Positions 27,040-43,300 of a DNA stretch of 64,000 bases are shown piece after piece. The notes beneath the pieces were generated by a model, which was given only the letters and a program-made list of their open reading frames with translations, was not told the origin of the DNA and did no database searches. Position 1 is the first letter of the stretch. Every line of letters begins with the position of its first letter. Source of the stretch: Pleodorina starrii (lineage: Eukaryota > Chlorophyta > Chlorophyceae > Chlamydomonadales > Volvocaceae); contig BRXU01000026.1 of assembly GCA_030267565.1 (NCBI GenBank), positions 1,364,001 to 1,428,000 on the forward strand. The letters run 5' to 3'. A program made the translations under genes and the position numbers.

Positions 27040-30000
27040 TCAGTTGCTGGATGGCGGCGGCCGTGGCGGCGGCGGCGGCGGCGTCCACAGGTGTGTGCGC
27101 ATAAGGCCCTTGCCCTTGACCTGCGGGCGCGGGGAACGAACAGCGAGCGAGGGAGGCAAGAAGGTTAGTTCGTGGTCGACAGCGCTAGCTGAGGTCGGAT
27201 GGGAACAACGTGCGTGCAGCAGCTGTGGCCCGCATGTATGCATGTGGCCCGCCGCTTGATTGGGACTGCTTCGCAAATGCGTGCGCTCATACATCGGCTT
27301 TGCTGCTTGCTTGCGTGCATGCTTGCCAAAATGCGCGTTCCGAGCTTCATCCCGTCGTCGCTTACATATCCAACATCCAACTATGCGTGTATCCAAGCCT
27401 GCCCTCGCTCCCACACACCCACACACCCACACGCACACACACCCTCCCTCCCTACCTGGATACCTCCCGTGCACTGCCAGCCGGGGTGGTGCTTTAGCAG
27501 TTGGTGGCACTCTTCCGATGCGTGGATGGCGCCGGGCGTGCTGGTGCTCTCCATGCGACTCGCTGAGGTGGTGGGGCGGGCGGGGTACGTACCGCGGCGG
27601 GGGCGGGGTTGCTTGATCATAATGGCTCAACCCGCAGCGATGGGACGCAAAGGATGGAGGCGTTGGGGCCGGCGCGGGTGGCAACACGTGTGGGACGGAG
27701 GGTAATCGATCTTTATATTTGACACGTCGGTCAGCGCATGTGACCGAGCGAGCGAGCGAGCGAGCGAGCGAGCGAGCGAGGCGGCCCATTCTATCCAAAG
27801 TACGATACGTACGGCCGTTGGCGCGCGCCAAGATCTGTACGATAATTTACCAAAGTGACGATGTGCTGTGCGTGCGGCAGCAGCAGCATGCAGTTACAGC
27901 AGCTAATAATAGGAAGGCTGGACAACAGGCAGGGCTCCATCCGTTCCGACTGAATAATGGGGAAAGGGAGCAAGCAAGGAGGAGCACGCACGCACTAGCG
28001 CGAGATCCCAACGGAACTAATAACGCCCATGGATGACCGACGTGCTGCGTGCGACGGAGCGAAGCAAGGGCTAACTCGTGCGGGGTCGGTGACCTGCCTG
28101 CCTGCCTGTGCGTGTATGCCAAAGCCCTCGCTCAGCCCAAACACACCGGCACGTCCAGGATACGTAGTCCATCAGTCCAGCCTTCATACCAGCCATCGGC
28201 CCAAAAGGAGGAACCTAGCTACCAACCACTCACAAGTTCCCTCCCGCTCTTCACACCCCTAATATTGTAAGCCGGCGGCGGGTCACAAAGCTAGAACTGC
28301 GTTACCCCGACCCTGCTGCCCAGCTAGCTAGCTACCGACGATTACGCTTGATGAGGCAGCGCCGCCGCCGCATGGGAACCCCGCTGCCCTGCCTGCCAAA
28401 CGAAGGCCTGCGTGTACATGCTTGCTTGCTTACTTGTGTTGACGGTGTCTCCAAAGAGGCAGAAGCGCGGCATGCGGGTGCCCACCACGCCGCTGACCAC
28501 GGGGCCGCTGTGGATGCCCACCCGCACCCGCACGGCCTGGCCGGTGGTGGGCAGTCGGATGCGCGAGACAGCGCTCAGCGCGGCCTGGGCGAGAGCGAGA
28601 GAGGGAGAGAGAGGGCAGGGAAGGTGGGCGACGTCGGGTAGATAGTAGTAGCGAGTGTGCTGTGGGTTCCGATGAGGGGATGATGAGCGCACTTCACAGA
28701 GGACGACGTAGCAGCAGTGGTGCCCAGTGGCGGCCAGCAGTAGTGCCCAGCAAAGGACGTATGTAGCAGCGTCCAAGTCCCAGTAAATCAAGTAGCAGTG
28801 TCGGTAATCTCACGCTCCCGTCGTGATCGGGGGCAACGAGCGCCCATCTATCTCGCCAACCCGCCGGCCCTCTCTCTATATATAGCCAATAACTTCCGTC
28901 GTGGGGCCGGCCGGAGGGTTTGAACCCGGACATTCGGGCGCTGCGGACATCCCTTGACTTCTGTGTAGCTGCCTGTGCATACCTAATTCGACTGCGTCAG
29001 GATTCGAACCTGCGCTCCTGAAATTATGCCATGTACTCCACAACACACTTGGCTGCGGCAGGGTTCGTACCTGCGCCCTTTCGGATAGGAGAGCTAGATG
29101 ACCTTAATCCTACCTTAGTCCTACGCCCTAGACCACTCGGCCACGCAACCACCTGACAAACGCTTATAATATTTACCATATAAACCGATCTTTTTTGGGC
29201 GGGGCCCCAGCGCGAAGCGCCCAGGGGGGCCCCGCCCTGTAGGATTGCCCATGTCCGTGCGTGTGTGGGACGTGGGATCATCTATCTGGGAAGTAATTGG
29301 ACAAGTGTAGACTTTCGGCCAACGGAAAGGCTGCAGAAGTAAAAGATTACATTCTTTATTGCACGGTAAATTTATTATTGGAACCCAACATCGCATGAGT
29401 ACAAACCAGTTTGGCAGTCTCCATGGACCGCGGCCGAGGTCAAACCAACACCTCTCGGCCTATAATTAATTCCAGAAGATGCATCGTTCCTCAAAGTGGA
29501 TTTCTGACACGGCGGCGTGAAATGAATTTTCGTTTCGGCGACCAACTAAGTTTGCATTGCGAACATTCTTCCCGCGACCACACCACAGCAGCTCTGCTAG
29601 CCGGTCCGACCGACTTGACGCACACTTATATTACAAAGGTCGCAAGGGACAAACCATGAGGGGCAAACTGCTGGTTGTTGGACGCCAAGCCGCAAATTGC
29701 ACGCACGATGCGGCGGTCTTCTGCTGCGGGCCGCCCAACATACAAGTCAAGTTGGCAACCTAGGGGACTGCTACATTCCCTGTCCTAATGTTAAAGTTGT
29801 CAAGCCTCCTCTATGGCTAATACCTCGGTAGTGAAGCCTGTGTACTTCTGTCGGCGGCAACTGCACGTCGTCGCAACCCTCGCAAACAGTTCCGCTGTCC
29901 TTCTATTGGCAAGTCAGCATGCGTGATGTGTAAATGTCTACTGTCAAGTAACTTCAGCCAATGCGCTGGCCGGAAGAGTTGCACAGTGCCGAGACGGCGC

Positions 30001-31399
30001 GCGATGCTAAACATGGGTCGGATTGCTGAAGCCGCAGGCATTTCAGATATAAAGCTCTGGCTGTCTATCAGCAGGAATGTCGACACTCTCACACTTCACG
30101 CCCTCGCCGCTCGCTTTGGAAATGCCGTATTTCGGTCGATGCGCACATGCGCTCATGCACCCGGCGGGATGACACGCTTCGCGCGGCGCCGGCAGGCCTT
30201 GCTAACGACTCGGCTAGCAGGCATTTCGGGAAAAAGCTCTGGCTGTCTATCAGCAGGAATGTCGACACTCTCACACTTCACGCCCTCGCCGCCCTAGCAC
30301 TCAACTCCACCCGTACGGATTTAGTGGGGCCCCGCCCTTTTTCCGGCTTCAAGGAAGCCGACACCAACCCCTTGTTGTCTTACCTTTGTCCAACGTCCAT
30401 CGGCCACGCACGAGCACAACCTTACGCTTGCAGCTTACCTTGGCGAATGAAAACACTTTCTCCGCGTGGTCTGGATCCACCTGGCCGCCCCCCTGCACCG
30501 CCGCCATGCCGTCCTCGTCCTCCCGGATGAGCCCCCCGGCCACGACATAGCAGTCGCCAATGGTCTCCACCTGTAGACACGGATAGATGGAGTGATGGGT
30601 CGGCTGCTGTGGTGTGTTGCTTGGGGACGGGCGGGAGCAGTAAGGATTTGACACTTTCGGCAATCTATCGTTCCGAGGGGATATCAATGAAGGCGCAATA
30701 GTTGGTGTCCTAAGTGCATGTAAGAGAGGGCCATGATCGTATGCAGTGTTTCGCCACACATACAGCATCGCAGTGGTGAATTCGCGGCGGACCTTGAAGA
30801 CGCTGTACTGGTCTAGCAGAGCGTCAAATGCCGTGAAGATCTGGTGCAACAGCTTCATCGCCACCTGCGGCGGGTAGTTGTCGTACACCTGCTTGAAATC
30901 TGCGCGAACGAAGAGCGAGCGCGGCGGCAGGCGTGGGTTACATGCATGGCATTGATTGGACGTCAAGCCAACCAACCGATTTGATTGGGCGCCAGCTGGG
31001 CGGCGGCTGGGCATCGATGTGTATTACAGGGCCCCCGCCGGCGGGCGGGCAGAGCGTGCGATGGGCGGCGGAGGTCGGTGCGCTGGAGGCCGATGCACGG
31101 ACATGCACTTACGACAGGCCTTTATCCGGAGAAGAGTCGGACCGTCACAGGCCCGCATCAAACACACACACCGTGCGCGCGCTGGCACGTTCCCGCCCCC
31201 TGATCGCAGGGGACTATTATATATGGAATGAAGGAACATCCTGCCGTTCAACAATCCACACATACGGTACCGCGCGCCCCGCCTGCTGCCTCCCTCCCTC
31301 CTATTCGCTTTACTTCTTGGGATGTATGCCTGGACGGGACGCCCAACCGCGTTGGCGGCCTACGTACGTACCTGGGATGTCCGCGAAAAGCAGGGTCAC
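27040..31399 (-). CDS. gene B exons 8-13: catalytic core
   Basis: Exon lengths 28, 107, 132, 151, 107 and 81 nt correspond to 28, 107, 132, 151, 122 and 1545 nt in gene A. All catalytic residues are present, with VETIGD and RFCLFGD giving the guanylyl-cyclase signature. TSRMES replaces ASRMES. The last exon encodes [14 protein letters not shown] and a Pro stretch, then stops at 27040. Introns here are unequal to those of gene A: 28585-30438 is 1.85 kb against 136 bp, and it carries tRNA-like sequences. Confidence 0.88.
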
Positions 31400-34300
31400 C
31401 TGAGCAGCAGCAGCAGAGAAATATCAACCAACGTAGGTGCGTGGATGGGCATCAGGGTGGTTTGTGTATGTCGAGCCCAAGAATCCGAGTAACGCCGTAG
31501 TGTCCCAACCAACATGCATGCATGTATGGCAGCCCCACGGCATCGGCGGCTGAGTTACGCTACTATCCTTTCTCTGTTTCTCTCCGTCCCTACGTCCCTT
31601 CCTAGGCGGGAACAAATCCCCAATCAATGCAAATGCAAGCAAGGGCCAAGCAAGCAGGGCCTTGCTCCATCCGTCGGCGGCGGCGGCAGCAGCGGGCTAC
31701 GTCAAACCTGCTGCACATCGCTTTCATTCTTAATGCAGGCAGGCAGGCACGCACGCACGCACGCACGCCACCATTTTTGTATCACGCCCACTTGTGGTGG
31801 TATGTACTGATACAGCAACCATAATATTTAGCATGCCTGCATTAGGGGACGCGGCGAAAAAACCGCGACTGGAGCGCGCAACGCAGAAAGGAGGAACCGC
31901 AGGTAACACCGAAGGTCTCCTGAAATGTTTTGCGCGTGCGGACAACGCCACGGGCTGCCCGTCGAGCGATGCCAAAGTAGCAGTGCCGACTGCGCGGGAA
32001 CGAGACCCCCGCCGGTTTATCAGGCCTGTATTGCTGAGGGCTAGCTTTGTACGTGGACCAACAGTTCCAAGGGCAACAGACGCAAGTATTCCAGTTGGTC
32101 AATGCACAAACGACCTCCCCCAACGGACGCGAAGACTCCCTGTGGGCTACCAGGGATTTTATTCGATCTTGCTAATGATGCTTCTCGCAAGTTTCTACAC
32201 GTCATACGCAGACCCGAGCCTCAACGCCGATGGAAAGCTAAGCGTGATGGCCCTCAACTTTCAAGGTCTGCAACCGCAGCGAGCCCACTCGTTCAATGGT
32301 TCTTCACCTAAATCACAGCGTGTTGCGTTTTCAGACAGCAACGCGGACACGCCACTGAACCGGAGATGTCCCGAAGCTGCATATTCGCCAGCCGCTCCAG
32401 ATTTGCAAATGTCCTGGATAGAATTGCTCAATCAGCAAGACCATAAGAACACAACGACGCCTACACGATATATTCTGGGCGCCCGTAACGACAAGTATGC
32501 CGACCACATGAGCGTGACGCAACGGAGCGCGGCTCAATACTCCTCAGGGAAGGTAAATGGTCAGCTCGAAGATAGACTGGATCAACATGAGCCTCTACAA
32601 ATAATTACTACATCAGGAACACTATGGTCGAGGTCGCGTGCATGGAGACAAGCTCAGAAACTAAAAACGCGGCACACAATAGGACTGGCTACAACCAGAC
32701 TGATAAGCGTAAACAGAAATAGCGCGCACACGGATAGACCCGGGTTGAGCCCTGTCGGAAAGGGCATCGCGGACCTCCCGACAGTTGGACGACCTGGCGC
32801 GTACAACCCACATTTGGCAACTGCGGCCAAATGGCGGACGAGACTGATTGCCAGGGGGATACCGTGCATGTTCCGATACGCCATCGTAGTCGCTCTGTTG
32901 GCTATCAGTCTTGCGCACGGCCACATGTTACAGCCCTTGCAGCCTGACATAAACCACACGATAGCAACCCGCCCCAGCCGAGCGCGATTTGAACCACGAT
33001 GCGGCGGCCCCGAGGATGGGGCGACGAACCAAGCCGCCACCGGCCTAAACACAGACACTATTGACGCACCACGGCGCCCGTCAGACGTCCCATGGCCACC
33101 ACCCGAACAACCGCCCGGACAGGATAACCCCACATACCACGAGCGGCAACAGGCACAAATGTGCATGGTGCACGCCATAAACAACTTGCTCGGGGGGCCT
33201 TACATCGACCCAACACACGTCATAACCTACTGCCGCACAATGACTAGACACCTGCAAACCCAGGGCCCTGCCGCGGCGGCCGCCATTTGGAACGCCGCAC
33301 ACAATTCCATCACCGGCCACTTTTCCACTATCGTCCTTAATCACTACTTACGCTACAATGTCGGGATTCGCGACGCCCATGGCCACACACAGAGTGACAC
33401 ACACATCGCATCCGTGAGCACTGAGATCCACCTGCGCAGAGGAGACCTGCTCGCCACCCTCTGGGAAACACTCCCACCACACGCTCGAAACTGGGGTTTT
33501 ATAGTACATCTCGAAGGACACGCCGTGGCCGTACGGAGGCAACGTACACACTGGTTCATTATCGACTCGCAGGCCCGGCTCCCCAAAAGGCTTGAAACCG
33601 AATGGCCTCTCGGACAGGGGGTAGTCTACTGCCTGCAATATCGGCGCAATAACGTCCCATGCCAAACGCACGTTGCCCTCCGAGACGTCGCACCACCAGA
33701 GCACTGGGAGCCCGCCACCGTGAGGCCGAACACACATAACGACACCAACACCCCCCAGGGCCCTGTCCCCACCGGAGCAGCCGACCCGCCCCACCCGGCG
33801 GTCGGAACACGAGCAGAAGGCGAGGAGAACAGGCACTACGCAGCCGACACCAACCCCACACCGATGGAGATCGACGAGGCAGGCCACACGGGAACCGAAG
33901 GCCGTACACAAACCCCCTCAACGGAGCTCGAACCCCCCCCGCCCCCAACCCGTGCACCCGAGGCTAGAACCGCTCCCGAGCTAAGCGCCACCCAAACCGA
34001 AGACAACCCCGCAACCACGCCCGCCGAGCCAAGTCCAATGGAGATCGACACTGTGGAACCGGAGACGGGCGCGGAGCAGCAGCTGCCGGACGCCCACCCC
34101 ACCGAACTCCATCTGCGCAACACGCAGCCAGGCCCCCAGGGGGCCCAACCAGCAAACGCGGGCACCACCGCAGAGCGCCGCTCCAACGCGGAAAGGGCGG
34201 CAATCCGCAACCCCGCCCCACAAGCAGCGGCACCTGCAAGCAGAGGTCGGAAACGGAACAGGCACCAAACGGGAACGACGCCTGCAACCCACACCATCGA

Positions 34301-37300
34301 ATACCACCTCCGTCGCATGCAAGGGCTCCCTATCCGTCAAGGCAGGGACCAACGGGCTGTCGAAATGCCGGACACAGCAGAGGCAACTCAGAGACCCGCC
34401 CGCACCCTTCCCAACCCAGCCCCCGAGCCAACACGCACACCGACACGCGGTACGATGCGCCCGCCCCCCGAGCCACCCACCCCTCGTACACAACAACGCA
34501 AGCGTCGCGCAGATAACCCCCCCACATCGCAACCACGCCCAAAACCGAAACCCGGACCCCAGCAACAGCACATGACGAAGTACGTGCACTCCAAGAAACC
34601 ACGAAAGGAGGCCCCCGCCGCACCTGCTGAAGCCCCCCGGGTGGCTACGACCGTGCTGCCCGTACCCACGACAGGAGATCCACAGCCCGGCCACCTCAAG
34701 ATCCTTACGATGAACACCCGCGGCCTGCAGGGGCACCGCGAGGGCATAAAACACCTGTTAGACGAACACAAACCGGACGTAGTGGTACTGACGGAAACCA
34801 AAATGAGTGCCCACCACCGGCGAGCCATCGCCGGGGTGAAGCGCACTCTGCAACCCTACCAGACATACATGAGTAACCACCCGCACGACAGTAACCCCAC
34901 TACACGGCAGGCAGGAGTGATGATTGGCGTGGCAGACCGCTTCAGTCGCCAGGGCAGCGCAACAGCAGAACCTGTGCCCTCAGAGCTCAGCGGGTACATA
35001 GTACACGTGCGTATCGCGCCCCCGGGCAGTACGGCTCTGCACGTCATAGGGGTATACTGCCCGGCCGACCCCGCCGCCAGGCAGAAGATATACGACTATG
35101 GGCGGGCGGCTGCGACGCAAGCCAACGCTAAGGGCGAACACCTAGTGATGGCGGGCGACTGGAATGCAACACTCAAACTGAGCGATCGGTCGACAGGCAC
35201 CTGTAACGCGACGGACCGAGCGCACCGACGCTTCTCGATCGAGACAGACCTAAAACCGGTAGACACGGTGCGCCGCGAGTACACATACACACAAACACAG
35301 CAGGGATACGATACCCACCACAGCCGCATCGACGATGTCCTCCTCGCCGCTCAGACCAGCGCCGCTGCAGCAATGGAAGGAAAGGCGTACGAACAAGTAT
35401 ATGAGTTTGGGGGAAACTTTGACCACAAACCGCTCTGCACCTTCCTGCCCCTAGCAGGCATCCGGCTCCTACCCGCCCCCGCTGCCCAACCACCCCCAGA
35501 TCACACTCCAGGCTCCTGGAGCCGGATCCAACTACCCGTACAAAAAGAGAGCAAAACCAAAGCACGCATGGAGATGGAGGCGACGCTCACAGATGCAATC
35601 GCGCACCTGCTTGATGGACTTCGACCCGCTCACGAGGTCATATCGGCCGCATCCACACAACTGGAGCGTGCGGCGTGCAAAGAGGAAGCCAGGCAGATCC
35701 TCGCCCACCTGCGCGACCACGAAGCCGTCCAAACAACGAACGTCGCCTCCCTAAGTCACGAGCTCGGATCACTACTGATGCGTTGCCTCGGGATCCTTGA
35801 AAGCCACTGCCAACACAAGCCCCCCCGCACGGGGCGCCTGCACGCACGAAGAGGCACGGGCAAGCGCATATCTCGTCTGTACGATGAACACAAGGCGCTG
35901 AAATGCGAACTCACCCGCATACTACGCGCGCCACGACCGGATACCCCACCCCACCCGGCACCCGACGTCCCGCGCCCGGAAAACGCTGACGCAGCGACCC
36001 CACAACCCCCACCCCGACCCACCCAGCTGATCGCCCCTGAAAACCCCAACCCACCTGAAATTACGGCCGCCCGAGCGCGCGATGACCCGGAGCTCCGAGA
36101 AACACCAGAGACCAGCGCCCTGCGGGCCGCGATTAGAGAGAAGGGAGAGGATATTCGGAAACTGACTACGGAAACCCGTAAACTACACGCGAGCAAAGCA
36201 AGAAAACAGTTCCAGCGCCTCCTAGCCAGGAAACCGAAGCAAGCACACAAACAAATTCTCGAGCCCGACGATCAGCCGCGCGGCATCACGGCCATCCGCC
36301 ACCCCGCCGATGGACACCTGTGCACAACTTCCGAAGGTATCCTCGACGCACTCCATGCACACTTTGCGTCCCTAGCCCGGCCCATCTCCGGACCCCGCAC
36401 TGGCAAATACCTCCCGAGCGAAGCCCCCCGAAACTATCCCTGGGAGACGCCGGGGGCGCCGGACCCTCTAAAACGGGGATTAGCCCGATGGGACAGCGCA
36501 CCCCCGTCCCTCCTCCCGGGCATCATAGACCCATGCAACTTTCGCGCATGCCTAGACCATCTCGCTCGCAACAAAGCCCCCGGGCCAGATGGCATACCCA
36601 ACGAGCTGCTGCAGACACTCCCCACCGACCTCCAAACCGCAATTCACCACCTGATTACCACCATGTGGGTTAAGGCCGAAATCCCCCCGCACTGGACACA
36701 ATCAGACACGGTCCTCATCCCCAAGAAGGGAGACCCACTCCTTATTAAAAACAAACGCCCCATCGCCCTGGCAAACACGCTTTACAAACTCTACACCAGT
36801 CACATTACATTAAATATCGTCACTTTTAGTGAGCAAGCACACATCTTCACGGAAGCCCAGGAAGGGTACCTCAGACAGCGCAACACGGAACGACAGATCC
36901 AAAATGTACTACACGCCATCGAGGACGCCGGCCTAACCAGTCGAGACCTCTACTTACTATATATCGATTTCACGTCGGCATTTAACACCATAGATCATGA
37001 TAAATTGCTTATGATCATGTACGATCTAGGATATCCCGAGGACCTAATCGAGGTGGTCGCGAACCTGTACTCGCGCGCCACCACATGCATACGAACCGAA
37101 CATGGCTGCACCGCGGAGATCGCAATCGAACGCGGCACAATCCAGGGCGACACGCTATCACCTGTACTGCTTATCATATACATGGAGCCACTCCTCAGAT
37201 GGTTACATAGCGGAGGCCGAGGATACCGCTACGGCTGCCTCCAAGCGGACGAAAACGACCGACACCACTTCAGCTCGGGAGCCTTCGCGGACGACCTAGT

Positions 37301-40300
37301 GGTCCTCACGAATACTGTGTCAGACATGCGCACACAGTGCACAAAAATCGAGCGCTACGCGCGCTGGGGAGCACTCAAGGTCAATGTAGGCAAGTGCCAA
37401 CTGCAAGGCATTCTGCACGGCCGCGCGCGTTCAGACACTGATCTGAGTCGAGGCCCCGGTACGCAAAAGTACAAGGCCATCCTAGAACGCCTCCTGAAAG
37501 ACCAAATTCGGATCGACGACGTACCCATCCCGTACGAACCCCCAACCGGATCGTATAAGTACCTCGGCGTACACATCACCCCTACCCTGGACTGGACGAC
37601 ACAAGTGGCCTACACGCGAGCCGAAATAGACCGACGGGGGCAAAGCATACAAAACTCCCTCGCAACTCCAGATCAACGCATAAACATGATTAAAACCCTC
37701 ATTCACCCCTTTGTGGCGTACAGCCTGCCTACCATGGCGTACACCCCGCACGACATCGCCAGCCTCGACGCCCAAATCGCTGGCATTGCCAAACGCAGCT
37801 ACGGACTCAAGATGGGCTTCCCCACCCGCGCCATCCTCGGCCCAATCTCCCGACTAGGTCTGGGGGTTGGCACCCTACGTACCCTCTATGCGGTCAGAGC
37901 GGCGAAGACGCTTGTCCTGTCCCTCAACGACAGGGGACGCCTTGGGGCAGTAACTCGAGCCCTCCTGCACCTGCAGAGCCGATACATGGGCACAATACCA
38001 GCACACACATTCAAACGCGAATGCCGTCACTATACCACGCTTAAACAACTTGCTCTCGTGCATGACGCCGGTATCGAACTCACGGACAGAGGCAGCACCT
38101 ACGAGCCGGCAGCGGGCAGCCTCATTCACCTGATCGGGGCGCACAACACGACGGCTGAGCCCAAGGATCTCGCGCTCCTCTTCCGATGCATACAGCCCCT
38201 GCTGGAACTTGGCCTGGACCTCAGGGCCCTGAAAGACAAAAACACGGGAGCGCACCTCATCACCACCGATCAGCTGCAACGCATCGGCGGCAGGAAAGTG
38301 GGCCCCCGCCATCGGATTGCCCTAAACCAGCTCAGCCTCGCCCTGAACGCTGACCCCAGTGTGCGCGCCCGGGCACCGCGCCACCGTGGTGTAGCACCCC
38401 TGCCCCCCGAACTACGACTCCTCACGGATGACCCACATCTGACTGATATTGCGAAGGAAGCGACAAGACCCACCCCCATCCCCCACGGAACCCTAAGGAA
38501 GTACGTCCTGGCCAAGCCCCGCGACCCGGCCGACACCGTGCCGGCCGCCCCAGCTGGAACCCCTCCCCCCCGCCCAGGCGCAACAACCCCTCGTGTGGAG
38601 ACGGGAACCCAAAATGCAGCAGCGCCGTCCGGCACCGCAACAGCCCCCGAGTCACGACGCCCGGCCGCCCGGCCAGCCGCCAGGCGCCACCAGCCACAGC
38701 GGAAGGCCGACAGTGAGCTGCTCAAAGCATACCTTCTTCGACAGAACCTGAAACCAGTCGACGGTATCACAGATGCCGAGGCCATTGGGTGGGACCCCCG
38801 GCAAACCCCACTTACCCTTCAGCACTGCGAACGAATCCTGCGCCACCCGCTCCACCGGGGCCTCACGTCCAAAGTGGGCTCCGCCGAACGGCTACTCCGC
38901 ATGCTCCATGGGGAGACGGCGTGGCCTGCGGGGACACCAGTCCAATATGGCCTAAGCATCACACAGCTTCTCTTCGGGGACCAAGAGAGGGTGGCCTGTA
39001 TCAAAGCGGAAATCCGCAAACGGGTCGCCGTCAGCACTCCGAAACCCAAGCGACAACGCACAACCGACTCGGCTACCCGAAACACACACCGAACATACTA
39101 CCTGGTTGAATGGGAACGTACTGTCATCACTAAAGGGGCAATAGCACTGTACACCGAAAATGGCTACCACCCCAAGGCGGTGCACCGGTACGAATCCCCC
39201 ACCGACCCCACCCACCCCGAAACGATAGTCGAGGTGGAATGGGCTCCCACCGAAGATGAGGAGTCGCGACTGGCCTCGCAAGACAACTGGACAGAGCTGC
39301 GGAATGCATTCCGGCATCGGCGCGCCATGGAGGCCGAACAGGACCCCGGTCGAATGGAAAATGCACGCGACCGCCACCTGACGGAATGGCAACAGCAAGG
39401 CAGATGGGAGACTGAATGCCTCAACGTGACCCGAGGCCAACGTCTCCTAAGGCAGTATGTTGAAATCAACGTGCAACCGGGTAACCCGGACCGGGACATC
39501 CACCCGCCCGGGCGATACACGGTCCAAATTGGCAATCGTAACGGCACACACAGACATGTACCATGGGACGGCAGTGGGGACATACCCGATGGACTGCAAG
39601 CCATTGGGATGGCATTCGTGTACGATCCCCAAGGGCGCTGCGTCGGCCAGGTGTCGGCCAGCCGCCTCCGCAGCCTGTGGCTCCGGTACAGCGACGCCCA
39701 ACAGAAACGCCCGGAAGAGCACGCACAGATCGCGGCCGCGGGTGGCTTCGCGGAGGATGTCGCACGCCTCCTCCTGCGGTATCGGGACGGAGGGGGCACC
39801 AAAGCACACCCCATTCGAGAGGCCCATGAGCGGAGGATATCTGAACGGCTGATGAAACGCCTCATGACCGCGCTGGGCGCCGCAACAGAGCGCTTTGCAT
39901 CCCCCCTCAACGTAGCAGACAGCACCGCCATCTACTACTCGCGGTACCCAGAAGATCAGCTCTTCGGAGCCAACCACGACGCGTATTCGCAACCGTGCAC
40001 GGGCGTATCCGTCGCGCACCCTGAACCTAAGCCGGACGAGGGGCATCATGCACTGCGATGGGCGCTAGGCTGGGCCGACGCGACACGGAGCACAGATAAC
40101 CCCACCGCTACCCTACTCCTGCTGCCCACGTCCCAAACGGCGCCCTACACCCGCTACCTCACCCACCCGCTGGTCACTATGATCGGTACAATAGACGCAT
40201 TCTCAGGAACGGGGGACCTCTACAGCGAAGTGAGTTTAGACGCTCCAAAACCCTACCCAAACGGACTCACCCTACTCCTGGTTAGCAATGAATCCGGCCG

Positions 40301-43300
40301 CGCGTACGGTACCAGCCTCCGCAGAGCGCTTGCTATGACGGCAGCCCGCCACGTCGCCACTGGCCCCGCCCTCCCTTGGACACCCCCCCAATGGGTGCGC
40401 AAGCGGGTGCGCAGTATGACCGAGAAGCCACCCGCCGCGGCGGTGCCCTCCCGGACGTGCGACAACATCCCCACGGAAGAGGGACGCGCCACGTTCCTGG
40501 CATTTTCTGCCAAATATGCGCTGCGATACAACGCCCAAGACGCCATATACACAGACGGGTCAGTGCAAAAGATTAAAGATGGCGAAGAGGAAAGACATCT
40601 CCTGGGAGCCGCGGCGGTTGACGCACTTACCAACACAACGCTCCACATAGATGTGAATGCAGGACACCAGGGCTGCCAAACTATCACACGGTGCGAACTG
40701 AGTGCCATCCATCAGGGTCTCCAGATGCGCAGAGGCACGCTGCACGACGAAGCTCACCTAACTATCTGGACGGATTCTGCCGCGTCTCTACATCTCATTA
40801 AAAAGATGATAAACAATCCACATAAGCTTCAGCTTAGTAAGCATAAGGCGCTGCTTGAGCAAATCGTATTAATACTTAAACGACGAGCGGCCTGTAACCT
40901 GACGACTTCTTTGCTTAAAGTGAAAGCCCACACTGGGGTAACGTACAACGAGAAAGCGGACAAAGCAGCCGTACAAGCCGCGCGGGGACTCTCCAAGCTA
41001 GACCCCGAAGCGCTGAGCGCAACCGAAACCTCAGACAATAATCCACGAAGCCAACACTGGTGGCTGCGGAAAATGGCTGGGCCTGAGAAGAACGCTGGGC
41101 ACTATGCTAACGACCTTAACCGCGGTATCGAGTCCTTGGTCAACCCGGAGACTCACTCGGGATACACGAACGAAACAGATTACATTAAATACGTCGCCAA
41201 CACCCTGCCTGACCTTGACATAAGCACCAGCACTCGAACTTTACAGCGCAAGGCGGGTCGACACAAGCATGTCAAACGATGCTTCGACTACCTGTATGGC
41301 CAGCTATGGAGCGCCAAGCTGGCGAGCCGATTTAAGAAACCATTGGCACCTGGATGCCCCGCGTCGTTAGGACACTGCCCCCTGTGCAACCATCTCGACT
41401 CCGGGGCGCACATCCTCGGAGGATGCCTTGACCCCCGAATGCGAGCCCTGTACATACAGCGGCACAACAGGGCGGTCCAAACAATTACCAGTACGCTAGC
41501 CCGGGGGTCCCATGGAGGATGCTACATTATAATGGACGCCGGCCCCGCGGACACCCGACCAGACTACGTGGCTGGCACACGCCTGCCCAAATGGCTGCTC
41601 CCGGAAATTGCGGATGAGGAACGCCTTAAGATGCGGCCCGATATACTCCTTATACCCGGCATCCCCCTCCACGAAGCGCGAGCGCCAGGGTACATGGGAC
41701 CCCCAGACCCCAGTCAACACACAGTACACATCATTGAGGTCGGCTACACCGCTGACACAAACCACACACAGAAACAGCACGACAAGGCCGTACAACATGC
41801 AGAACTGGCCAAACTCCTCACGGAAGCCGGATGGAAGGTCCGCTACACAACACAGGAAGCCATCAGCCTCGGCTTCGCGGGTACCATAAGAAAGGACCTA
41901 CGCCCTCTACTCCACACCCTAGGCACGGGCAGCAAGGAAGCCCGAGCCTGCTGCAACGACCTCCACGACCATGCAGTTAGAACACTTAACACTATTGTTG
42001 TAACCCGCAGGCAAATGGAACGTAACCCCCACGCGGAACCGCAACCGGCAGGCACATAACCAACGACAAACCAGTCTGAAGTTCCTTGCGGTGGTGGGGG
42101 GGGACTGGGACCGGGGAAACCCGTCACCCCACCCCCTCTGCTCCCATAACCCACGCCTCGGCTACCGGCCGGGCGTATCATTATTATTATTATTTATTAT
42201 TAGCATGCCTGCATCCTTGCATCGCACTCACCATGGTATGCAGAGTCGCCAGATGGGTGCAATCCCGCACGTACGGCCGCCATGTCTCGTCCAATACTTC
42301 GCCGGTACCTGCCTCCATTGTTGGCGTCTGCTCGGTCATGTATTGGAGGACTGCGTTGTGGCCAAGGACACCAGACACGTATGAGGGGATGGGGCGGGTT
42401 ATGACGGAGTGCCATGCTGGCTTGGGATCCTATCTTGGCTGTGGGATCGTTCCATCCTCATGAGTGTGAGCAGTTAGACACCACTCCCCGCCTGCCTTGC
42501 CCGTGCGTCCTTTGATGTGTCCCTATGCCACCCCACCGACTCCTTGCAAGCAACCTTCTCCGCTCCCTCCACATACACGGACCGTCCCCGCCCGAACCCG
42601 TGCCCCACTTCCTTCCTTCCTTCTTCCTTCTTCCTTACCGTGTCTCGGGAAGATCTGCTCCAGCAGCCGGTGCTCCGTCTCCGAAACCTGCGCCACGTGC
42701 CTCTCCGCGACCACCTTTGCGGTCACATCGCGCTGCATCACCACCACCCGGTGTTGGCCGTTGACAGGGTCCACCAGCCCCACCGCCACCACCTCGTGCC
42801 AGCACTCTTCATCAGACGCGTCTCTACAACTGCCGGCGGCACCGACAGCGGCGGCTGCTGCGGCGGCAGGGGCTGCTGGCACCACCGCCGGCTCCTGTGT
42901 TGTCGCCGCCGTCGGAACACCACCCGTGCTCGGCGGGCTCCTGTCCGGTGCGGCCGCGGCCGCAGTAGCAGTGGCGGCGGCCACTGCCGCCACGCCGACG
43001 ACCAGCCGCCCGGGCGCGGCTGCTGAAGACATGCCCCCGGCTGCACCTCCCCTGCTGGGCGCAGCATCTCCCTGCATGGAGGCCGAATCGGTGTTTCGAT
43101 TGATCAAGGGGAGGGCAACAAGACAGGGGCCGTGCGATCTGAAATTGAGTACGCTGCTGGCGTGCATTGCCCCGCCGCTGGTTGCTGGCGTGCATTAGAG
43201 CTGGGTCAACCTTTTCCCAGGCCGCCGAGCCGCCAGCCTGCCCTTGTATTCCTGCCGCGGGGCCACGCGCTTGGCAACCGGGGGAGAGGGCTCATCCTCA

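Follow-up and report, generated by a model that had tools for sequence, protein, structure and literature searches.

A Josephin-type cysteine protease in the polyprotein of a Dualen-like retrotransposon from Pleodorina starrii, with a candidate ubiquitin-tail-like Gly-Gly processing site

The closest described systems to the element analysed here are the Dualen/RandI retrotransposons of Chlamydomonas, reported by Kojima and Fujiwara in 2005, among which Dualen is said to encode a cysteine protease. Proteases of the deubiquitinase or deSUMOylase type are also carried by mobile elements of other classes or clades, namely the DNA transposons Ginger1, Mutator and Helitron with OTU or Ulp1, and the NeSL/Utopia retrotransposons with Ulp1; Josephin goes unmentioned in the passages that treat these elements (PMC2836005, PMC4640811). 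Some Ginger1 members bear OTU and others Ulp1, and the relevant passage discusses why mobile elements carry deubiquitinase-like proteases as a possibility (PMC2836005). The coronavirus protease PLpro cuts its polyprotein at LXGG, a sequence identical to the ubiquitin tail according to the passage on this enzyme (PMC7464072), and 2A sites are recorded in other non-LTR retrotransposons in the corresponding part of PMC4981915.

The element of Pleodorina starrii has in common with Dualen/RandI an AP-like endonuclease, a reverse transcriptase, an RNase H and a probable restriction-like endonuclease in one frame and, like the OTU- and Ulp1-bearing transposons, is a mobile element with a protease of the deubiquitinase or deSUMOylase type. 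Like PLpro, this ubiquitin-type protease sits in a polyprotein with ubiquitin-tail-like sites, which are present here as a sequence pattern only; PLpro differs in being USP-like rather than a Josephin and in belonging to an RNA virus, and the likeness is one of working, with no kinship claimed. The protease exchange, tandem Josephins and alternation between Gly-Gly and 2A presented below are not mentioned in the passages on Dualen/RandI, and a literature search that left most subscription papers outside returned no description of a retrotransposon Josephin, of protease exchange or of a Gly-Gly site.

The stretch of P. starrii DNA analysed (the window, 64,000 nucleotides of contig BRXU01000026.1) contains a complete insertion, delimited by edges common with other copies and by the edge sequence itself:

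31829..31841, no strand: target-site duplication, 5′ copy, TAGCATGCCTGCA, 13-14 bp, from the sequence at the edge
31842..42200, + strand: full-length non-LTR retrotransposon insertion, ~10.36 kb
42201..42213, no strand: target-site duplication, 3′ copy, from the sequence at the edge
31794..42059, + strand: open frame of 3421 codons

Comparison of copies within the organism's own genome (136 Mb, 95 contigs) placed the 5′ edge at 31842, common to copies on C15, C30 and C6, and the 3′ edge near 42194-42202, common to many copies. The element ends in an (ATT)n tail, as judged from the edge sequence, and (ATT)n 3′ repeats are also listed for green-algal RandI in the relevant part of PMC3747384. Inside the element no Met precedes residue 128 (32175), so that the annotated start of the frame falls in host DNA, the GTG at 31794 and the ATG at 31833 both lying in the flank, outside the element. 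Over 701 bases around the Josephin region, two other copies are 100% identical to the window's element; with the same query, a further five align at 92-100% over 500 bases or more, and of the 40 matches scored in this genome, 30 stand at 74-76%. A Pfam Josephin search across this genome returned 53 matches; frames longer than 1000 codons hold 42 of these. Given these identical or near-identical copies and the 53 matches, the element looks recently active, and several families carry its domain. On the − strand, the frames flanking the element (28342-31014 and 42523-43167) read by eye like a PAS and nucleotide-cyclase gene, in an intron of which the element seems to sit antisense.

The following features were located in the polyprotein:

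32844..32906, + strand: hydrophobic, possibly membrane-spanning segment, residues 351-371 (Kyte-Doolittle scan)
33003..33008, + strand: candidate self-cleavage site Gly404-Gly405, 42 residues before Josephin
33129..33713, + strand: Josephin domain, residues 446-640, with Gln452, Cys457, Asn463, His576 and Asp591
34692..35357, + strand: AP-endonuclease-like (EEP) domain, residues 967-1188 (PF03372, 46.6 bits; limits from the profile)
36522..37967, + strand: reverse transcriptase, residues 1577-2058, FADD at 1831 (PF00078, 90.6 bits)
38994..40070, + strand: PCIF1-like region, residues 2401-2759 (PF12237, 26.4 bits, below the cut-off of 31.1)
40536..40982, + strand: RNase H, residues 2915-3063 (PF00075, 44.6 bits)
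41154..41987, + strand: probable zinc knuckle and restriction-like endonuclease (... IIEVGY), motifs identified by eye

The AP-like endonuclease, reverse transcriptase and RNase H all score above their Pfam cut-offs in one frame, an association characteristic of Dualen/RandI. The initial annotation had proposed, partly from the sequence itself, that a retrotransposon polyprotein carries a Josephin-type cysteine protease here, with Dualen as its comparison, and this identification was borne out both by Pfam and by a predicted fold closest to Josephins. The catalytic words on which it relied, including HWFIIDSQ, are present in the frame starting at 31794, with the codons of Cys457, His576 and Asp591 at 33162, 33519 and 33564, and the anticipated spacing of about 115 residues agrees with the distances observed from Cys to His (119) and from Cys to Asp (134). 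The interval then given, 33120-33660, covers the catalytic residues, and the modelled domain extends to about 33713. Gln452, at −5 from Cys457, occupies what we take to be the oxyanion-hole position.

Residues 430-649 alone match the Josephin family PF02099 with an E-value of 5.4e-12 and 46.2 bits, and the whole 3421-codon protein scores 36.9 bits (curated cut-off 26 in both cases). A single-sequence PDB search with the domain returned ataxin-3 chains (E 5e-4), and a 34-row profile reached Josephin-2 (E 3e-14), ataxin-3 (1e-10) and the bacterial PaJOS (2e-10), both catalytic stretches lining up with their counterparts in the first two of these; 28 of the 34 rows, the window included, match PF02099. 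The fold comparison suggested with the annotation was run and gave a papain-type, Josephin-like prediction, whose closest structural matches are Josephins at 16-22% identity, among them the ubiquitin complexes 3o65 and 6pgv. The domain has in common with the Josephins of ataxin-3 and JOSD2 (PF02099) the profile, the fold and the Gln-Cys-His-Asn/Asp residues, and the GNF stretch of the element profile aligns with GNY of Josephin-2, the window itself reading GHF. It differs from Josephin deubiquitinases by this low identity, by its location in a retrotransposon polyprotein and by the Asp at the third catalytic position, which is an Asn in ataxin-3. The element would encode a Josephin-fold cysteine protease, predicted to be active, at the head of its enzymatic polyprotein.

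Other identities were considered and set aside. An OTU fold found no support, PF02338 matching neither the isolated domain nor the full protein at E up to 1. The only other Pfam match to the domain, PF15644 (papain-fold toxin, glutamine deamidase), falls short of its cut-off with an E-value of 0.0009, and a chance match to Josephin was rejected at E 5e-12. NCBIfam gave nothing further on the Josephin domain. What appears to be the ataxin-3-like Josephin gene of the host itself (L020, G000:C20:1059176-1061086, − strand) is split over exons; its first exon scores 57.9 bits with Pfam and just 26 bits with the element profile, on which ground a recent capture of this host gene was rejected. A profile search for cellular Josephin kin retrieved only one further element fragment, P0122, which reads CGGP upstream, and a DNA scan of viral contigs with the reverse transcriptase gave no matches.

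Conservation was examined in 121 proteins, the window's own and the 120 reverse-transcriptase relatives listed of 219 found. Iterative profiles detected Josephin in 64 of the 121, representing 88 domain copies; 24 of the 64 carry more than one copy, 19 of them from Haematococcus. Such tandem Josephins are seen for example in P0077, P0083 and P0094, from Haematococcus lacustris and metagenomes. Where aligned, the catalytic Cys is kept in 80/80 copies and the His in 87/87, and the third position is acidic or Asn in 86/86 (82 Asp, 2 Asn and 2 Glu). Gln is present in 69 of 79 aligned copies, and the other ten, each coming first in a tandem, have E, R, V or K at this position and still possess Cys, His and Asp; the second Josephin copy of P0060 shows a gap at the aligned Asp. 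Invariance in the 34-row alignment, whose mean column identity is 22%, is limited to Cys, one Asn and His.

Selection was estimated by the Nei-Gojobori method, with dS near 1 against the own-genome families. Between the window's element and four other-family copies covering 199 residues (72-75% amino-acid identity), the Josephin domain showed a dN/dS of 0.15, and 0.19 against a fifth, partial copy. In the same families, values were 0.14-0.18 for the endonuclease (0.11 over 70 residues of the partial copy), 0.15-0.16 for the PCIF1-like region and 0.04-0.05 for the reverse transcriptase, against 0.32-0.48 for the linker after Josephin, one further linker comparison being dS-saturated and left out. 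Against a copy about 97% identical, with few changes, dN/dS was 0.35 in Josephin, 0.44 in the endonuclease, 0.50 in the linker and 0.81 in the N-terminal part. The Josephin domain is under purifying selection and is maintained much like the endonuclease. A pseudogene was rejected on the uninterrupted frame, the two other copies identical over 701 bases and the dN/dS of 0.15.

The position occupied by Josephin can hold other proteases. An endonuclease starting at residue 300 or beyond, which leaves room for a visible protease, is found in 82 of the 121 proteins listed, and in these, the window included, iterative profiles identified 63 Josephin, 6 OTU-like and 7 C48/Ulp1-like slots, with no protease found in 6. 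OTU and C48 families are known for the deconjugation of ubiquitin or SUMO. Pfam cut-offs are exceeded for OTU in P0014 and P0012 and for C48 in P0076, P0044 and P0008. The OTU match of P0010 is below cut-off, as is that of a second domain in P0008, a protein with hints of both families. The assignment of P0042, P0065, P0050, P0056 and P0119, for which no OTU or C48 Pfam match was obtained at E up to 0.05, and of P0046 and P0019, for which neither appears in the precomputed Pfam list, is based on iterative profiles and motifs. We take D-G-x-C, HW and Q-x-D-x-x-x-CG to be the OTU-like and C48-like motifs: the six OTU-like rows all keep D-G-x-C, the six aligned C48-like rows keep HW, and five of the latter keep Q-x-D-x-x-x-CG, the sixth with an insertion. 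Searches of the host's own genome gave 4 OTU and 6 C48 matches, in frames of at most 608 codons.

A reverse transcriptase tree was built with 58 of the 82 proteins, 24 Haematococcus near-copies being dropped. At the fewest, 11 changes of protease type are needed on this tree (10 when rows without protease are left out), with which the loss of one protease from a two-protease ancestor is as compatible as replacement. Counting only the well-supported branches, the Josephin label still has to change 6 times. Elements with different proteases are paired at a support of 100/99 in several cases: P0021 (Josephin) with P0046 (OTU), P0018 (Josephin) with P0012 and P0014 (OTU), and P0030/P0032 (Josephin) with P0019 (C48). 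Clustering of the C48 label is at chance level (135 of 500 shuffles as low).

Gly-Gly is the ending of ubiquitin and the dipeptide (GG) behind which ubiquitin-type proteases cut, and it was therefore searched for in the elements. The window's GG is kept in 10 of 11 own-genome rows, two of which represent one place, and hence in 9 of 10 places, window included, the exception being L021, a short frame; the nearest metagenome relative, P0002, reads AGP at this position. In the window's element the residue that follows is a proline, usually a poor P1′ residue for deubiquitinases. From 41 Josephin proteins (23 Haematococcus near-copies dropped), 34 had enough upstream residues; in these 34, which include the window's own protein and on which the test was framed after a first count, GG occurs 3-82 residues before Josephin in 24 proteins, the window's among them, against a shuffled mean of 9.0, and 0 of 2000 shuffles reached as high. 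With four near-copies removed, the count was 20 of 30 against 8.4 expected, again with 0 of 2000 shuffles as high.

None of six control places was significant for GG. The closest was the segment 83-162 residues upstream of Josephin (11/34 against 8.5 expected, 360 of 2000 shuffles as high); the others were the segment 163-242 residues upstream (8/30 against 7.5) and the places before the endonuclease (5/39 against 4.0), before the reverse transcriptase (4/41 against 8.6), after it (6/41 against 5.7) and before RNase H (4/38 against 4.6). GG with Pro within two residues was seen in 13 of the 34 upstream segments and in 0-2 segments at each control place. In 20 of 21 listed cases, the first G stands 16-42 residues ahead of Josephin; across the 21, the residue before GG is most often Arg (7/21) and the second residue after it most often Pro (7/21); P0016 carries RLRGG twice upstream of its Josephin. 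Among the C48 relatives, GG was found in 4 of 6 upstream segments (78 of 5000 shuffles as high).

The 2A motif E-x-NPGP is present in 25 of the 121 proteins listed, always upstream of the protease, at 1-14 residues before Josephin in 18 of them and, in the other seven, roughly 100-150 residues ahead of an OTU-like (5) or C48-like (2) domain. In the 34 segments, 24 have GG only, 5 have 2A only, 5 have neither and none has both (Fisher p 0.0009), the 2A rows not being independent, as Haematococcus accounts for 3 of these 5 and for 16 of the 25 2A proteins overall. The nearest relative P0002 is one of the five with neither, and P0050 has both 2A and GG upstream of a C48 domain. A hydrophobic segment lies within 400 residues before the site in 24 of 34 proteins with at least 149 residues there. 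Inspection by eye showed no ubiquitin-like domain before the Gly-Gly, and a 2A relic in the window's family was discarded, no 2A motif occurring in the 11 frames scanned.

The enrichment of GG before the protease only, together with its alternation with 2A, favours self-cleavage at a ubiquitin-tail-like site, and we infer that the protease recognises this Gly-Gly. Self-processing at such a site, possibly accompanied by deubiquitination, is the reading to which we give an even chance. Family, catalytic residues, predicted fold, purifying selection, slot exchange and site enrichment are results of computation; catalysis, cleavage at Gly405 and any action on ubiquitin are inferred. The protease would first act on the nascent chain, severing it after Gly405, some 40 residues ahead of the Josephin domain, which would free the enzymes from an N-terminal part often endowed with hydrophobic segments; where a 2A ribosome-skipping site lies immediately upstream, the Gly-Gly cut would no longer be needed. 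The same specificity could strip ubiquitin, or a ubiquitin-like protein, from element or host proteins, so that deubiquitination of either is possible. Gly-Gly specificity combined with deconjugation would explain both the swaps between Josephin, OTU-like and Ulp1/C48-like domains in the slot and the persistence of the protease where 2A took over release; this persistence beside 2A and the exchange for other ubiquitin/Ubl-type proteases suggest a second role as a deconjugase. More tentatively, and at somewhat less than even chances, we propose for the clade as a whole that these algal non-LTR elements free their N-terminal protein either by 2A or by a self-cut Gly-Gly, with a protease swapped among Josephin, OTU and Ulp1 and probably deubiquitinating too. 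If so, this would to our knowledge be the first Josephin to act in polyprotein processing.

The initial annotation had suggested that the element removes ubiquitin from its own proteins or from host chromatin rather than just processing a polyprotein. Removal of ubiquitin retains a place in the preferred reading; its opposition to processing is not supported as worded, the GG enrichment and the alternation with 2A pointing to self-processing or to both functions. A pure deubiquitinase, processing no polyprotein and stripping ubiquitin either off the element's protein, which it would shield from proteasomal degradation, or off chromatin or repair factors of the host, would suit the Josephin folds found as closest matches, including the ubiquitin complexes 3o65 and 6pgv, the slot common with OTU-like and C48-like families, presented as deconjugases of ubiquitin/SUMO in the passages of PMC2836005, and the retention of the protease where 2A already releases the upstream part; it leaves the GG enrichment before the protease and the absence of GG beside 2A unexplained, and we consider it rather unlikely. 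An endopeptidase that keeps the Josephin fold, has no dealings left with ubiquitin and may cut the polyprotein at several places appears less probable still: repeated replacement by other ubiquitin/Ubl-type protease families would be unexpected for such an enzyme, and of the seven places tested a single one shows Gly-Gly enrichment, those ahead of the endonuclease, the reverse transcriptase and RNase H showing none, even if the 16-22% identity to cellular Josephins in structural alignments and the long, fast-evolving linker (dN/dS 0.32-0.48) are in its favour.

The presence of PaJOS and BpJOS, clippases by PDB title, among the seven best structural matches evokes a ubiquitin clippase, or an eraser of another ubiquitin-like protein, like these bacterial enzymes. 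Their Z is tied with that of eukaryotic Josephins and the ranking gives them no preference; we consider this activity very improbable. Hardly credible, finally, is a non-catalytic relic carried along by the element, since the catalytic residues are nearly invariant across very divergent elements and the dN/dS of Josephin is as low as that of the endonuclease; the Gln lost in ten first tandem copies and the aligned Asp missing from the second copy of P0060 are what would speak for it. The question of why mobile elements carry deubiquitinase-like proteases becomes directly testable here, on one domain with one candidate site, a natural replacement by 2A, and sister elements bearing Josephin, OTU or Ulp1. 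Cleavage at the Gly-Gly would mean that retrotransposons have come upon the ubiquitin-mimicking way of processing that coronaviruses use; without it, the slot exchange would still speak for a lasting dependence of the clade on contact with the ubiquitin system.

Regarding the remainder of the polyprotein, a profile of the C-terminal zinc-knuckle/endonuclease region picked up 109 of the 121 proteins listed; the region had no library profile match, and a PDB sequence search returned three chance-level rows only. The PCIF1-like region, between the reverse transcriptase and RNase H, was found by profile in 114 of the 121 and, unlike in the window's element, exceeds the PF12237 cut-off in several relatives; a PDB sequence search with it gave no matches. 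PCIF1 represents a cap m6Am methyltransferase family with NPPF as catalytic motif. In the elements, RFASPLN and FGA..DA are often conserved, and an NPPF-like motif occurs in 1 of 113 PCIF1-like stretches, others reading for instance NPEY or HPEP. Upstream of the endonuclease, the stretch QQQHMTKY[VA]H (34560-34589, residues 923-932), kept in the own-genome families L015-L018, resembles a PCNA-binding box. PHD-finger matches appear in the precomputed Pfam lists of P0021, P0023, P0026, P0029, P0070 and P0078, and below cut-off in P0076 and P0119, a possible chromatin-reading module in some relatives.
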